Position numbers and translations under genes: made by a program
In this document: in pieces, positions 4,314-25,108 of the stretch
Layout of the letters: each line of letters starts with the position of its first letter
Position numbering within the stretch: position 1 is the first letter of the stretch
Virus record (IMG/VR): IMGVR_UViG_3300008954_000083
Span: 1 to 46,181 of that record
Source: a virus
Reading direction: 5' to 3' (one strand)
DNA length: 46,181 bases
The notes under the pieces: model-generated
The model's input: the letters and a program-made list of their open reading frames with translations, nothing else
Told to the model about the DNA's origin: nothing
The model's database searches: none

Positions 4314-4534
4314 GCGAGCACCCGACCAAGCGCGAGATCCAGGCGGCCTTCGGGCAGCGGGTCTACGAGTACAGGGACGACGAAGGCGTCGTCTACTACT
4401 CCTTCACGCGGGCTCCGAACATCATCAGCCCGCCGAAGCGGTTGCGGATGAAGAGCAAGGTCGGGGTCCACCTGATCAACTTCCTGACGCGGCTGCGGCG
4501 GCTGAGCGAGAGCCTCCAGGGGCCAGAGGGGTAG
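4310..4534 (+). CDS. Hypothetical small basic protein (74 aa)
   Basis: I place the start at the GTG at 4310, which overlaps the stop of the preceding gene (GTGA), the same coupling seen at 6973. The product begins VSEHPTKREIQAAFGQRVY, has a short beta-like part (YRDDEGVVYYSFTRA) and ends in an Arg/Leu-rich helix (LINFLTRLRRLSESLQG). There is no membrane segment or known motif. It is probably co-transcribed with the spanin-like pair and the next gene. The function is unknown. Confidence 0.65.
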   Translation: MSEHPTKREIQAAFGQRVYEYRDDEGVVYYSFTRAPNIISPPKRLRMKSKVGVHLINFLTRLRRLSESLQGPEG

Positions 4535-4568
4535 GGTGGCGCTCGGCTACCCGAACCCGGAAGGAAAC

Positions 4569-4943
4569 ATGAGCGACGACAACAACAACGCGACCGTCCA
4601 GCAGCACCCCGGCCAGCCCGGCCAGATCGTCCTCGGCGAGGTTCTCCCCGAGGCCCTGGCGAAGCTCACCGGCCTGAAGCAGCAGGCGGATCAGACGGTC
4701 CACCAGATCGGCGTCCACCGGGTGCAGGAGCACCGGCTGATGGATCAGCTTCGTCGCCTGGAGAACGCGACGAACCAGGTGGTGATGGAGGAGGGCAAGC
4801 GGCTCGGCATCCCCGAGGGGACCGCCTGGTCGGTGACGCAGGACGGCAAGGCCGTGCAGGTCGGGGCTCCCCCGATCCTCCGCCCGGTGCCCAACCCGCC
4901 CGCCGACAACCCCGAGGCCCCGGAGGCCCCCGAAGCGGGGTGA
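4569..4943 (+). CDS. Hypothetical coiled-coil protein (124 aa)
   Basis: The ATG at 4569 follows AAGGAAAC and gives MSDDNNNATVQQHPGQPGQ; a GTG at 4536 in frame is possible but lacks a better site. After a polar, disordered start comes a helix of about 55 residues (LPEALAKLTGLKQQADQTV, HRLMDQLRRLENATNQVVM) likely to form a coiled coil. A short conserved-looking segment (GIPEGTAWSVTQDGKAVQV) follows and then a Pro/Ala/Glu tail. Its size and layout are like small virion or chaperone proteins that precede neck genes. No family is recognised. Confidence 0.65.
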   Translation: MSDDNNNATVQQHPGQPGQIVLGEVLPEALAKLTGLKQQADQTVHQIGVHRVQEHRLMDQLRRLENATNQVVMEEGKRLGIPEGTAWSVTQDGKAVQVGAPPILRPVPNPPADNPEAPEAPEAG

Positions 4944-4955
4944 TACGAGGTGTAG

Positions 4956-6362
4956 ATGACGACCGCGTGGCAGTGGACGAGCGCGGGGGCGGCAGGCAAG
5001 CCGCTCCCCCCAAAGAACCCGCAGGTCGTCAGCCCCTACGTCATCGGGATGCTCGACATCCGGTGGGAGGACCCCTCTGTGCTTGCCCGCAACGCGGGCT
5101 TCACCATCGTCGGGGTCAACATCTACCGCTCCGAGGCGTCTGACCGAGGCCCGTTCCGCCGCATCAACGAGTTCCCCATCGGCGGCGGGTTCTACCGCGA
5201 CCGCACGAACTACTCCCGCGTCACCAAGGAGACGGTGGTGTGGGGGTCGAGCTGGCGCTACCGGGGCGACGCCCCGAACGACCGGCGATGGGTGTTCTGC
5301 ACCAAGAACCCCATCGCGAAGCGGTACGACTCGGCCCCCAACCAGGACGTGAACTTCGCGGACTCGCCGACCGACGTGCAGCTCTTCGTCAACGGCGAAG
5401 AGGTGGTGGTCGAGACGGTCTTCGGGAAGACCGGCGAGGTCACGCTCATCAACCGGCCGACCTTCGACGTGGGCACCGAGCAGCAGGTGGACCCGGTCTT
5501 GCCCACCGAGGCCGACCGGGTGGAGATCAGCTACTACACGCCGACGAACCACGTCCCGTCCGGGCTGGAGCACAACATCTGGTACAGGGTGACCACGGTC
5601 GCCGTGGACGCCACGACCCCGAGCGGGTACGTCGAGTCGCCCCTGGAGTGGGCCGAGCCGAAGTCCGTCGTCCAGGTGGAGGAGCTGGACTACATCTGGC
5701 GTGAGGCCATGCGGCGGAACGCCTGGATTCTCCAGCAGGGCGGCGAGCGGGTGAAGATGTTCGTCCGCAAGATCCTCGGCATCCCCTGCGACTGCACCAT
5801 CGAGGACAAGACCAGGGAGTACAGCAAGCAGCCCTCGAACCGCTGCCTGACGTGCTTCGGCACGGGCTTCAAGGGCGGGTACGAAGGCCCCTACGAGGTC
5901 ATCATCGTCCCCGACGACGCCGAGCGGCGGATCTCGCAGGCGGTGTCCGGGCGGCGGAAGGAGCACACCTACGAGGTGTGGACCGGCCCGAGCCCGCTGC
6001 TCACGCAGCGCGACTTCGTGATCAAGCAGACCAACGAGCGGTACTCGGTCGGTCCGGTGCGGCGGCCTTCCCATCGGGGCAACCTGATGCAGCAGCACTT
6101 CAACATCGCCTACCTGGACCAGGGCGACATCCGCTACAAGGTCCCGGTCTACGGCACGACCGAACTGGCCTGGCCCGAGACTCGCGGCCAGCACTGCGTG
6201 CGGCCCTTCACGCCGCAGCCGGTGGACCACCCGATGGCGGGTCCGGCCCCGTGGCCTGTGGGCACCGATGCGCAGCACCCGATGCAGACCGAGAAGGCTG
6301 AGATCTGCGACGAGAACGAGCGCAGGGGCCGCACGAGGGTCTGGGAGAACACCGAATACTGA
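4956..6362 (+). CDS. Probable neck/virion structural protein with FN3-like and zinc-binding parts
   Basis: This 468-aa protein opens the neck operon. Residues about 45-235 look like a fibronectin-III-type beta domain (FTIVGVNIYRSEASDRGPFR early, HNIWYRVTTVAV late) with an insert carrying beta strands (DVQLFVNGEEVVVETVFG). Around residues 275-300 there is a CDC...CLTC cluster in a glycine-rich turn, a likely zinc site. After it comes a beta-rich part (EVIIVPDDAERRISQ, FVIKQTNERYSVGPV) and a Pro-rich tail. The position immediately before an HK97-gp10-like gene, overlapping it by one base (TGATG), suggests a head-tail connector or baseplate-proximal virion protein. The exact role is not shown by the sequence. 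Confidence 0.7.
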   Translation: MTTAWQWTSAGAAGKPLPPKNPQVVSPYVIGMLDIRWEDPSVLARNAGFTIVGVNIYRSEASDRGPFRRINEFPIGGGFYRDRTNYSRVTKETVVWGSSWRYRGDAPNDRRWVFCTKNPIAKRYDSAPNQDVNFADSPTDVQLFVNGEEVVVETVFGKTGEVTLINRPTFDVGTEQQVDPVLPTEADRVEISYYTPTNHVPSGLEHNIWYRVTTVAVDATTPSGYVESPLEWAEPKSVVQVEELDYIWREAMRRNAWILQQGGERVKMFVRKILGIPCDCTIEDKTREYSKQPSNRCLTCFGTGFKGGYEGPYEVIIVPDDAERRISQAVSGRRKEHTYEVWTGPSPLLTQRDFVIKQTNERYSVGPVRRPSHRGNLMQQHFNIAYLDQGDIRYKVPVYGTTELAWPETRGQHCVRPFTPQPVDHPMAGPAPWPVGTDAQHPMQTEKAEICDENERRGRTRVWENTEY

Positions 6363-19529: not shown

Positions 19530-20639
19530 ATGACGACGCCCTTGCGACAGGAACTCAAGAAGCTGGCGAACGAGGTGCCCGAGCTGCGGCCGATGCTCGT
19601 CCCGGTGCTGGCGGCCGAGGGCGAGATGCCCCGGTACGTGCCCGAGCACATCATGCGGCACATCGACCGGGTGGCCCAGGCGCACCTCTGCCGTCAGGCG
19701 GGCGTGCCCTTCGACAAAGAGGCCCGAGGCCTGCCCCGCAGAGGGCAGAAGGTCAAAGTCACGGTGGACACGCCGTTCGACAAGGAGAATGGCAGCAGCG
19801 TGAAGGTGCCTGCCGGGACCATCGGCACGGTCCTCGAAGTGGTCGAGGCGGGGATGCCCTCTGCCGGGCTGCTCGACCAGATGGGGATGGGGGCCTACGA
19901 CGGCGACACCGTGCTCGTCAACTTCGGCCGCTACGGCAAGCTGATCGCGGAGGAGTACGACTTCCAGCGGTTCGGCGGCAGCAAGACCCCGCGTCTTGTC
20001 CGCCTGGCTGCCTCGAAGCAGGCGGCGATGCTGTCGGAGCGCGAGTACGACTCGCTGCGTCCTCGCCAGCGGATCTGGTTCGGCCTGTCCACGAGCTACG
20101 TCTTCACGAACGACGACGGGATGGCCGAGTTCGAGGTGGGCCGCAAGACCTACTCGAAGAAGTACGACGTGTACTCCATCCGCCTGTTCCCCATCATCGA
20201 CGGCAAGCCGCACAAGGGCGGGGCGAAGTTCATCCTGTTCAAGCGGGAGGGCGGCTACATCAGCCTCAGCCACGGCGGTATGGGGGCCATCGTCAAGAAC
20301 TACCGGCTGGCCTCGCAGAAGCAGGCTTCAGCCGTCATCGTCGGCGACATCTTCTACTCGTCCTGGGGCTACGACCAGACGAACATCGACTTCTATCAGG
20401 TGACGGGCACGACCCGGACGATGGTGAAGCTCAAGAAGATCCAGAAGAAGATCGTCGGTGGGAAGGGGCAGCCGCAGGAGAAGGTGATGCCCATCCCGAA
20501 CTCGATGGCGGGGCCGGAGCTTCGCAAGAAGCTCAAGGAGTACCAGGGGCGGGCCTACGTCAACCTGAACAGCTACGCCTCCGCCTACAAGTGGGACGGC
20601 AAGCCCAAGTCACAGACGGGCGGAGCCTACGGCCACTAG
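19530..20639 (+). CDS. Conserved phage protein with LRxxLxxLA...PELR N-terminus (369 aa)
   Basis: The N-terminus, MTTPLRQELKKLANEVPELR followed by PMLVPVLA, matches a leader-like helix I recall at the start of many unrelated phage proteins (LRxxLIxLAxxNPxLRPxLLPLL); its role is unknown. Residues about 70-150 form a beta-barrel-like part (GQKVKVTVDTPFDKE, VPAGTIGTVLEVVE, GDTVLVNFGRYGKLI). Near residue 270 is a segment GDIFYSSWGYDQTNIDFYQV, followed by a basic run KLKKIQKKIV; related WGYDQTN segments occur in small phage proteins of unknown function. No enzyme motif is seen. It is convergent with the next gene, with stops overlapping at CTAG. Confidence 0.7.
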   Translation: MTTPLRQELKKLANEVPELRPMLVPVLAAEGEMPRYVPEHIMRHIDRVAQAHLCRQAGVPFDKEARGLPRRGQKVKVTVDTPFDKENGSSVKVPAGTIGTVLEVVEAGMPSAGLLDQMGMGAYDGDTVLVNFGRYGKLIAEEYDFQRFGGSKTPRLVRLAASKQAAMLSEREYDSLRPRQRIWFGLSTSYVFTNDDGMAEFEVGRKTYSKKYDVYSIRLFPIIDGKPHKGGAKFILFKREGGYISLSHGGMGAIVKNYRLASQKQASAVIVGDIFYSSWGYDQTNIDFYQVTGTTRTMVKLKKIQKKIVGGKGQPQEKVMPIPNSMAGPELRKKLKEYQGRAYVNLNSYASAYKWDGKPKSQTGGAYGH

Positions 20640-21772: not shown

Positions 21773-21808
21773 TTGACACTGTCGGATTCTTGCCGTAGCT
21801 TCCTCCGC
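21773..21808 (+). promoter_or_regulatory. Promoter of the MerR-VIT/VWA operon with overlapping palindrome
   Basis: A perfect TTGACA (21773-21778) is followed after 17 bases by TAGCTT (21796-21801), a moderate -10. The start codon lies eight bases later, so the transcript may be leaderless or nearly so. The palindrome GACACTGTC (21775-21783) overlaps the -35 and is a likely operator, perhaps for the MerR protein itself or the divergent winged-helix protein. This is the most orthodox promoter in the window. Confidence 0.6.
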
Positions 21809-22219
21809 ATGAGTGGAGAGACCTACACGCTGTTGGAGTTGGCAGACCGGACGGGCTTCAGTGCCCGGACCATTCGCCACTACATCAGCAAGAAGCTACT
21901 GCCGCCGCCGCTCAAGGCGGGTCGCGACGCGACCTACGGCCGGGTTCACCTCGACGCCCTCAACACCGTCAAGGAGCTGAAGGAGGCCGGGCTGACGCTC
22001 GACCACATCCGGGTCCAGATGGAAGAGCGTGGCGAGCTGGACCCGAGCCTGCCCGTTCCGCAGCCCTGGCTCATCATCCAGCCCACGCCCGACGTGGCCG
22101 TGATGGTGCGCTCGGATGTCCCGCCCTGGCGGAGGCACAAGATCGACCGCGCCCTGATCTCGTTCGTCCGAGCGGTTCAGGACCCCAACGAGAGCCCGGA
22201 TTCGTCCGAGGGAGCATGA
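21809..22219 (+). CDS. MerR-family transcription regulator
   Basis: The 136-aa product begins MSGETYTLLELADRTGFSAR and has the MerR winged helix-turn-helix: LLELADRTGFSARTIRHYIS, then LLPPPLKAGRDATYGRVHLD and LNTVKELKEAGLTLDHIRVQ. It lacks the long dimerisation helix and the Cys effector site of metal sensors. The C-terminal 50 residues (QPWLIIQPTPDVAVMVRSDV) look like a small separate part. MerR proteins usually twist promoters with long spacers and control themselves. Its ATGA overlap with the VIT/VWA gene shows that the two are made together, so it probably regulates that operon. Confidence 0.85.
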   Translation: MSGETYTLLELADRTGFSARTIRHYISKKLLPPPLKAGRDATYGRVHLDALNTVKELKEAGLTLDHIRVQMEERGELDPSLPVPQPWLIIQPTPDVAVMVRSDVPPWRRHKIDRALISFVRAVQDPNESPDSSEGA

Positions 22220-24122
22220 AGATGAACGCCCACGCAGTGAACACCCTGATCGACACGAGCACCGGCCAGCAGATCGACCTGGCGATGCAGAGCCTCGAAG
22301 TCACCGGCCGGGTCTACCCCATCGGCAGCTTCGTGCGCGTCATCCACCGCTTCCGGTGCCTCGGCACGCGACCGATGGAGGCCGTGTACGTCTCGCAGCT
22401 CCCGACCGGCGGCACGCTCCGCCGCTTCAAGGTCATCGGCGAGAACTTCGAGTCGGAGTCCCGGCTGGAGAAGCGCGACAAGGCCCGCAAGGAGTACGAG
22501 ACGGGCGTGGCGGCCGGGCACCTGTCGGTGCTCGCCGAGACGAACATCGACGGCATGGTCAACCTGACGGTCGGCCAGGTGCAGCCCGACGAGGAGATCA
22601 GCGTCATCATGGACGTGGTCGTCGGCGTGGACACCAAGGACAAGGGCTTCCGCTTCCGCTACCCCTTCACCCTGGCCCCCAACTACCACCCGCAGGCGAA
22701 GGCGTCGGCGTCCGAGGACGGGGGCTCCATCGAGCTGCCCTCGGACATCTTCGGCGACCTGGTGCTGCCCGAGTGGAAGAACAGCGGCTTCGGGCTGCAC
22801 GAGGTGACCTTCAACCTGACGTGCTTCGGCGGCACCGACCTGGCGACCGTCTCCTCCCCGAGCCACCGCATCAAGGTCGCTCCGCAGGCGGACGGCAGCA
22901 AGCTGGTGAGCCTCGCCGGGATGAACGACACGCCGAACCGCGACCTGGTGATCGACGTGGAGGTGCCCGAGGCGCAGGCGCTCATCTTCGGCGACGCGAC
23001 CCTGCTCGGGGCCACGGCGACGGGTGACGAGCCGGTGGTGCCCAAGGACGCGGCCCGCTGGACCGCCTTCCTGCCCTCCTCCGCCTTCCCGAAGGTGAAG
23101 CGGCAGCCCCGCCGGGTGTGCTTCCTGATCGACCGCTCCGGCTCGATGCACGGTGCGCCCATCGAGAAGGCGAAGCAGGCGCTCCTGGCCTGCCTGTCGG
23201 TCCTCCAGCCGGACGACGAGTTCGGCATCGTCCACTTCGGCTCGGACTCGGTGAAGTTCGACGTGACCTCTCCTCGAAGATGGACATGGCCGGGGCGGGC
23301 ACCCCGACCCGCGACCGCGTCGAGCAGAAGATGGTCGCGGTCTCCGAGGGCTTCGGCCTCGCCAGCCGGGTGATGAGCCTGGTCACGGTCGTCGAGCGCA
23401 TCGGCGACCAGGCGGGCATCACGCCCGAGCAGAAGGTCGTCTCGGTCGGCACCCCCGAGGGGCAGGACCCGGCGGGCGTCTTCCCGGTGTCGGTCAACTA
23501 CGCCTCGATCCTCGGCCAGACGGCTCCCGTGGCGGGCGGCTTCGCCTCGCGGGGCATCCGCCGGAGCGTCACCCGGAGCCGCCCCTCGGCGGCCATGTAC
23601 TCGATGTCGGCGGACGCCTCCCTGGGCTTCGGCAGCTTCGAGACGACGCGCGGCGGCAGCATGATGAAGGGCGGCGGCTCCCGCAGCCTGTCGTTCGGCG
23701 GGGACCTGAACCGGGAGCACGAGGCGATCCCCGTGGCGGCGGTGTCGGCCTTCGCCTCCTCGGTGGACGACTTCGACCTGTCCTTCACCTTCAGCGGCAA
23801 CCTGCTGGTGGACGTGGCGGGGCTCGCGGCGGACGGCGGCGTCATCGGCGACACCATCGAGGAGCGGGTGCTCAACACCACCATCCTGATGCTGGTGGTC
23901 GCGGCGGCGGCGAAGGAGATGCCCGGCGTCTACGAGCAGCACCTCGACCGGATGGCGAACTTCCTCGCCGCCAACAAGGAGGCGGTCAACGGCCAGTCGG
24001 TCGCGGTCCGCAAGGCCATCCTGGCGGCCCGGAAGCCCGAGCGGCTCAAGGGCAAGCAGGCCGACTACGAGGCCCTGTTCGCCTCCGACGACCCCTGGCC
24101 GACCATCCGCGCGTCCATCTGA
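22216..24122 (+). pseudogene. VIT/VWA-domain protein, interrupted within the VWA domain
   Basis: Translation starts at ATG 22216 (MKMNAHAVNTLIDTSTGQQI), coupled to MerR. Residues about 5-130 form a VIT domain (LEVTGRVYPIGSFVRVIHRF; KRDKARKEYETGVAAGHLSV). The VWA domain begins near residue 300 with CFLIDRSGSMHGAPIEKAKQ, including the DxSxS metal site at 306-310, and runs to IVHFGSDSVKFD. There the frame turns to nonsense and stops at 23373. From about 23268 another frame continues with the post-VWA part: SSKMDMAGAGTPTRDRVEQK, LASRVMSLVTVVERIGDQAG, and on to 24122. About 100 residues of the VWA domain, including its later metal ligands, appear to be missing, together with a shift of frame. Full-length relatives are cellular adhesion or scaffold-type proteins; they are rare in phages. 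A deletion or an assembly error would explain the break. Confidence 0.7.
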
Positions 24123-24132
24123 CGAGCTGGAG

Positions 24133-24174
24133 CCTCCTGCGGGGTAGGGTCAAGATCCCAATCCCCGCAGGAGG
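24133..24174 (+). promoter_or_regulatory. 12-bp hairpin that buries the ribosome site of the PLD gene
   Basis: CCTCCTGCGGGG (24133-24144) pairs perfectly with CCCCGCAGGAGG (24163-24174) around an 18-base loop (tagggtcaagatcccaat), in which GGG and CCC can add three pairs. The right arm ends in AGGAGG, the ribosome-binding site six bases before the PLD start at 24181. A closed hairpin would block translation initiation; it could also end transcription from the upstream gene. TAGGGT at 24145-24150 in the loop is -10-like but is not a clear promoter. Confidence 0.7.
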
Positions 24175-24180
24175 TTCCTC

Positions 24181-24630
24181 ATGGCCCGCAGGCCCCACGT
24201 CTCGACGTACTTCTCCCCCCGCCAGGGGGCTGCCGACCAGATCATCGGCTTCATCGACCACTGCGAATCCACCCTGGACATCGCGGTCTACGCCATCACG
24301 CACGACGAGATCGCCGAGGCCATCGCCCGAGCGCACAAGCGCGGGGTGAAGGTCCGCGTCATCACCGACCACCTCATGTCCACGAACAAGGGGTCGGACG
24401 ACGAGAAGCTCAAGGTGATGGGCGTCGATGTCCGCAAGGACACGCAGGCCGGGGCGATGCACCACAAGGTGTGCATCGGCGACTCCTCCGCCGTGATCAC
24501 CGGCTCGTTCAACTGGTCGAAGAACGCGGACAAGCACAACGCCGAGAACTTCGTGATCATCCGGCTGAAGTACGCCGTGCGGGCGTTCCAGAAGGAGTTC
24601 GAGCGCATCTGGAAGCTGAACGCCTACTAG
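24181..24630 (+). CDS. Phospholipase-D-family nuclease (single HKD)
   Basis: The 149-aa protein has one PLD catalytic motif, HHKVCIGD at residues 94-101 (HxKx4D), followed by the typical GSFNWS. The first half (FIDHCESTLDIAVYAITHDE, AIARAHKRGVKVRVITDH) matches the Nuc/endonuclease-type small PLD family. Such proteins act as homodimers that cleave DNA or other phosphodiesters. No signal peptide is visible, so a cytoplasmic role is likely. In a phage it could process DNA, attack host or competing DNA, or serve as a DNA-end factor. Its translation start lies in a 12-bp hairpin, and its stop overlaps the convergent HTH gene at CTAG. Confidence 0.85.
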   Translation: MARRPHVSTYFSPRQGAADQIIGFIDHCESTLDIAVYAITHDEIAEAIARAHKRGVKVRVITDHLMSTNKGSDDEKLKVMGVDVRKDTQAGAMHHKVCIGDSSAVITGSFNWSKNADKHNAENFVIIRLKYAVRAFQKEFERIWKLNAY

Positions 24631-25031: not shown

Positions 25032-25108
25032 TTTCGTTTTCGCTAGGGCTTCTATACGCCGCAGGTAGTGAGCGAGACGGCATTGATCGCCCGCACGGAG
25101 GACCTCTC
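25032..25108 (+). promoter_or_regulatory. Upstream region of the tail tube operon
   Basis: CTATACGCCGCAG at 25052-25064 repeats the element found upstream of the genes at 3392 (CTATACCCGGCAG) and 11276 (CTATCCCGCAG). TATACG at 25053-25058 would be the -10. A relatively A/T-rich stretch (ATTTTCGTTTTCGC) lies before it, which could help promoter melting or bind a factor. GGAGG precedes the ATG at 25109. It is the likely promoter for the long tail operon. Confidence 0.45.

Follow-up and report, generated by a model that had tools for sequence, protein, structure and literature searches.

A hairpin hiding the ribosome site of a jumbo-phage nuclease gene: a probable RNA timing lock of the T4 type

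A stable hairpin buries the Shine–Dalgarno (SD) sequence of a Nuc/PLD-type nuclease gene in the window, that is, the whole stretch of 46,181 nucleotides of viral DNA analysed here (IMG/VR record IMGVR_UViG_3300008954_000083). The hairpin goes beyond chance, and its pairing is retained with changed letters before nuclease genes of related jumbo phages. We consider it probable that the hairpin is an RNA timing lock of the kind known from phage T4, equipped with an internal promoter, which would confine the expression of the nuclease.

The nuclease gene and its hairpin

The features on which the analysis is based are the following.

21773–21801, plus strand: sigma-70-like promoter of the MerR–VIT operon, TTGACA-N17-TAGCTT
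21809–22219, plus strand: MerR-type regulator gene, which opens the upstream operon and is the likely source of read-through RNA
22216–23373, plus strand: N-terminal part of the VIT/VWA gene, the frame ending after an internal deletion near 23262–23265
23118–24122, plus strand: open frame with the C-terminal remains of the VIT/VWA gene, its TGA stop codon (24120–24122) standing 6 nt before the stem
24129–24144, plus strand: 5' arm of the hairpin, the anti-SD side, with a perfect core at 24133–24144
24143–24150, plus strand: GGTAGGGT, candidate promoter element at the border of arm and loop, with a possible −10 box TAGGGT at 24145–24150
24145–24162, plus strand: hairpin loop of 18 nt
24163–24178, plus strand: 3' arm of the hairpin, with the ribosome site
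24169–24174, plus strand: SD sequence AGGAGG, fully paired in the long transcript (probability of being unpaired 0.000; opening cost 20.0 kcal/mol)
24181–24630, plus strand: Nuc/PLD-type nuclease gene, 149 amino acids, with the HxK(x)4D ... GSxN motif
25039–25057: window copy of the late promoter before the tail-tube-like gene

The nuclease matches the Pfam family PLDc_2 (PF13091) at 2.3e-29 and, with a family profile, the solved endonuclease 1byr at 1.3e-25; the HxK(x)4D and GSxN motifs are conserved, and the sequence match places the protein in the Nuc/PLD family. Like the Nuc endonuclease (PDB 1byr) and NucT, it has a single HKD motif and is matched over the full length of the protein; unlike NucT, it scores below the NCBIfam cut-offs and is encoded by a phage. 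The gene lies downstream of a co-directional unit able to read through into it. Relative to the related locus L011, the VIT/VWA gene of this unit carries a net deletion of 589 nt, affecting the VWA core, together with a frameshift, and ribosomes initiating there thus stop at 23373; the window copy (22216–24122) is either a pseudogene or an assembly error. The gene downstream of the nuclease is common to relatives whose contigs reach 619 kb, and one homologue, in the Tunturiibacter phage Tunturi_5, bears the annotation virion structural protein; we call the gene tail-tube-like on account of its position. The 110,937-base contig G001 contains the window at 99.996% identity, and we regarded the two as one phage; L003/L008, which represent the contig holding the window at this identity, were excluded from the independent loci.

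As an earlier sequence-only reading of this DNA had claimed, CCTCCTGCGGGG (24133–24144) and CCCCGCAGGAGG (24163–24174) are perfectly complementary around 18 nt, and the right arm holds the ribosome site AGGAGG, six bases (TTCCTC) before the ATG at 24181. The stem is slightly larger than first reported, comprising 16 bp (24129–24144/24163–24178), and the outward extension of the 12-bp core consists of four pairs, one of them G-U (24129–24132/24175–24178). The local fold of the hairpin region has a predicted energy of −67.9 kcal/mol, compared with −52.2 ± 4.4 kcal/mol in dinucleotide shuffles (z −3.6, 0/200). When the SD and the gene start were kept and the upstream sequence alone was shuffled, the cost of opening the SD was 5.9 ± 2.0 kcal/mol, compared with 20.0 kcal/mol in the actual sequence (z 7.1), a value reached by none of the 300 shuffles. 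Furthermore, the hairpin ranked first among the 1090 SD-led starts scanned in approximately 1.3 Mb of loci of this jumbo-phage family.

A scan for intrinsic terminators between positions 20000 and 28000 of the window found none, and the hairpin does not show the GC stem followed by a U-tract that marks such a terminator. The sigma-70 scan detected no promoter at the hairpin site. No Rfam family matched any part of the window at gathering score; the matches to the hairpin region lay far below their cut-offs and assigned it to no thermometer or riboswitch family.

Conserved pairing and selectivity among relatives

The relatives comprised 80 loci collected from viral contigs through the tail-tube-like protein and nine collected through the nuclease family; one scan of genome contigs returned two PLD relatives only, both without such a hairpin. 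The nuclease of L011, which shares 64% amino acid identity with that of the window and stands at exactly the same distance after the VIT gene, has its SD enclosed in a 14-bp stem that is perfectly paired, has a loop of 6 nt, and consists of other letters (ACCTCCTGTAGGGG-CGCTGT-CCCCTACAGGAGGT). Stems of 10 bp in L025 and 9 bp in L030 each cover the SD of a PLD gene and exceed shuffled sequences modestly (reached by 11/300 and 9/300, respectively); independent PLD hairpins numbered four only. At the same place in L056, a gene for a nuclease of the SNase fold has a strong hairpin over its SD, with a 15-bp stem and a 5-nt loop, and a diverged SNase gene in L138 has a weaker SD hairpin, which does not go beyond shuffles (25/150).

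Aligned by the position of the SD, the six hairpins (four PLD, two SNase) have canonical pairs throughout, and all non-SD pairs present in more than one of them have changed on both sides, in a small sample that includes two non-homologous nuclease genes and in which five SD positions are invariant and hence uninformative on covariation. MAFFT left the hairpins out of register, and the pairs were tabulated by SD position instead. The covariation that the sequence-only reading had proposed to look for is thus present in these few homologous sequences, where pairing is kept through compensatory changes, and the loops share neither length nor sequence.

The hairpin occurs behind a co-directional upstream gene (window, L011, and L025) and is absent from five PLD genes with a divergent upstream neighbour (L012, L100, L101, L102, and L103), orientation being called by a GC3 heuristic that is less certain for L100, where a co-directional frame is also listed. 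It is likewise absent from the PLD gene of L039, which lies in a tight operon and has no SD. In L030, the contig starts only a short way before the nuclease gene. In L024, L026, L042, and L051, no nuclease follows the VIT/VWA gene and a strong hairpin stands there; those of L024 and L026 have a U-tail and resemble terminators.

Nuclease genes are prominent among the starts with a buried SD. When every SD-led start in the family loci (the 1090 candidates mentioned above) was scored for an SD-covering stem, 12 distinct hits emerged; PLD nucleases account for four, among them the two highest-ranking. A further hit, in L040 (3772–4324), is a T5orf172/MUG113 (GIY-YIG-type) nuclease with a 12-bp stem over the SD. 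A hit in L058, apparently an internal start inside an exonuclease domain, was discounted.

Internal promoters and the proposed switch

The DNA before the tail-tube-like gene contains a clear common promoter, TTCGnTAG-N5-CTATA, which is the late promoter of the family and was seen in approximately 40 loci. Scoring with a matrix derived from these tail-gene promoters, which come from the phage family under study, revealed late-promoter matches at positions −42 to −49 relative to the nuclease start in L011, L025, L030, and L056 (region p 0.017, 0.015, 0.018, and 0.005, respectively), which is the right place for an internal promoter, and L138 repeats this layout of promoter and hairpin. In L011, a −10-like CTGTAG falls within the 5' arm. 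The predicted RNA start in the four relatives falls at −17 to −24, in the tip of the 5' arm or in the loop, and such an RNA would thus lose all or most of the 5' arm. The cost of opening the SD on the long and short RNA, respectively, was calculated as 16.7 and 4.3 kcal/mol in L011, 12.1 and 4.7 kcal/mol in L025, 14.4 and 8.2 kcal/mol in L030, and 20.6 and 9.3 kcal/mol in L056, the SD on the short transcripts of L030 and L056 still being fairly costly to open. In the window, the cost falls from 20.0 to 3.8 kcal/mol for an RNA starting within the loop.

Further strong late-promoter sites in the window lie at 2278 (plus strand), 2321 (minus strand), 11043 (plus strand), and 19479 (plus strand); between 2278 and 2330, two strong matches on opposite strands face each other and overlap in a near-palindrome (CTATACTGCGGAGTATAAGG). 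A lock as a general feature of late genes was rejected, as the cost of opening the SD differs little between the long and the short RNA in most of the 58 genes with a late promoter. In L056 (2349–2400), a late promoter precedes a 124-aa gene of unknown family, and SD opening costs 10.0 kcal/mol on the long and 1.2 kcal/mol on the short RNA. In L023 (2490–2540), a 14-bp SD-hiding stem with TAATAT in its loop precedes a run of seven T and a 145-aa gene that matches no family. The L023 hairpin may combine an SD lock with a terminator, as may the SNase-gene hairpin of L056 with its T-rich tail.

At the window hairpin itself, the late-promoter model gave no match (region p 0.31), and GGTAGGGT was therefore examined as a stand-in. 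This element occurs eight times on the window strand of the 110.9-kb contig and not at all on the other strand, and five of the eight copies lie in the 6.8% of the DNA that is non-coding, commonly shortly before a start codon. Because an equal strand bias is found in 172 of 4925 8-mers with similar copy numbers, the bias alone is unexceptional; the intergenic location is the better argument, and it gives moderate support to GGTAGGGT as a promoter element. GGTAGGGT lacks a good −35 box; TAGGGT recurs as the −10 box of the MerR promoter in L011. If GGTAGGGT acts as a −10 element, the RNA would start at approximately 24155–24160, in the loop. The promoter step is a prediction in the relatives, and it is put forward most cautiously for the window.

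The timing lock that we propose would work as follows. The long read-through mRNA from the MerR–VIT/VWA operon would contain both arms, fold, and hide AGGAGG, and the nuclease would remain untranslated from this transcript, as folding and comparison suggest. A separate predicted transcript beginning in the loop would lack the 5' arm, leaving the SD accessible and presumably allowing the nuclease to be translated. In the relatives, the internal start would arise from the match to TTCGnTAG-N5-CTATA; in this phage, it probably arises from another element, GGTAGGGT at 24143–24150. The effect would be to limit the DNA-cutting enzyme to the period when the hairpin promoter is active. The sequence-only reading had described a translational off-switch of a silent nuclease, of which the off state on the long transcript is supported, but not the proposed modes of opening, namely temperature, a ligand, or coupling with ribosomes from the VIT/VWA gene.

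Alternative explanations and parallels in T4

The SD could also be hidden with no internal promoter in this phage, the nuclease being silenced permanently and made at a low level, or being translated by ribosomes arriving from the upstream frame. The missing late-promoter match in the window speaks for this, as does the end of the upstream frame 6 nt before the stem. However, the VIT/VWA gene is frameshifted, its own ribosomes stopping at 23373, and a ribosome terminating at 24120 should cover only to approximately 24132. A ribosome ending at the stop of the downstream fragment should thus leave the bases that pair with the SD (24133–24138) paired, and coupling is unlikely in the window given both the frameshift and this limited reach. 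Moreover, the distance from stop to stem is not conserved in L011, and relatives have promoter matches placed inside the hairpin, so that permanent or coupled silencing appears unlikely. It is rather more doubtful that the hairpin serves mainly to terminate the MerR–VIT operon, with an incidental overlap of the SD. Relatives without the nuclease often carry U-tailed hairpins after the VIT gene (L024 and L026), and T-rich tails end the hairpins of L056 and L023, but in the window, L011, L025, and L030 the stem has no U-tract behind it, and the terminator scan was negative; furthermore, pairing invariably includes the SD side of the stem, and no hairpin occurs where read-through is not expected.

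The long dyad adjoins regulator genes, as might be expected of a DNA operator bound by a protein such as the MerR regulator or a nearby HTH protein. An operator should keep its letters, whereas the sequence and spacing of the dyad differ in each homologue except for the SD and its complement, making this explanation very improbable. Burial of the SD would also suit an RNA thermometer or a ligand riboswitch, yet the stem is nearly perfect and, at 20 kcal/mol, too stable for gradual melting with temperature, no thermometer family is matched, and the loops, sharing neither sequence nor length, offer no conserved aptamer for a ligand; with no Rfam family at gathering score, such a sensor is highly improbable. 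Although GC-rich DNA favours stems and 26 inverted repeats are listed across the window, a functionless repeat arising by chance is extremely improbable in view of the 0/300 shuffles, the first rank among 1090 starts, and the compensatory conservation in homologues.

The timing lock has precedents in T4, where e, soc, 49, and I-TevI are established cases of a hairpin combined with a promoter; segB and mobE have been reported as further cases (PMC2988022, PMC3014915). In e, soc, and 49, which are lysis, capsid, and recombination genes, a harmful or late product is silenced on read-through mRNA, lysozyme (e) being reduced approximately 100-fold, and the late promoters are encoded within the 5' strand of the stem (PMC3014915); the mechanism was measured in those genes, whereas we infer it here. 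Hairpins of homing-endonuclease genes are known for I-TevI, I-TevII, I-TevIII, and segB of T4 and for mobE of Aeh1 (PMC2988022). As in this set, the gene concerned encodes a nuclease, long transcripts have their SD concealed in the hairpin, and a phage promoter, here a predicted one, would yield an RNA without the 5' arm. In contrast to this set, the folds are Nuc/PLD, SNase, and one T5orf172/MUG113 (GIY-YIG-type), the phages belong to a jumbo-phage family with another late promoter (TTCGnTAG-N5-CTATA), and the gene is free-standing beside a tail-tube-like gene. The patchy presence of the nuclease beside the tail-tube-like gene is compatible with a homing endonuclease. In L004, an HNH-like endonuclease with an HTH (4425–5702, minus strand) stands beside the PLD nuclease gene, which hints that the site is visited by mobile nucleases.

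The principle of the lock is known, and, as far as the literature searched shows, this phage family, its promoter, and these nuclease folds have not been described with it. The analysis reveals the late-promoter sequence of this jumbo-phage family. Tentatively, and with somewhat less than even confidence, we suggest that unrelated nuclease folds (Nuc/PLD, SNase, and GIY-YIG type), coming and going beside structural genes within one jumbo-phage family, each gained a hairpin that hides the SD and in most cases has a promoter within the 5' arm, and that the switch of the T4 homing endonucleases thus evolved here independently. If so, the lock could be used as a sequence signature for timed phage nucleases, and a stem that conceals the SD and has a promoter inside the 5' arm would provide a simple search rule for timed toxic genes in uncultured phages. 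The T4-style restraint of dangerous nucleases on read-through mRNA would then be a general solution, found again with unrelated promoters and enzymes.
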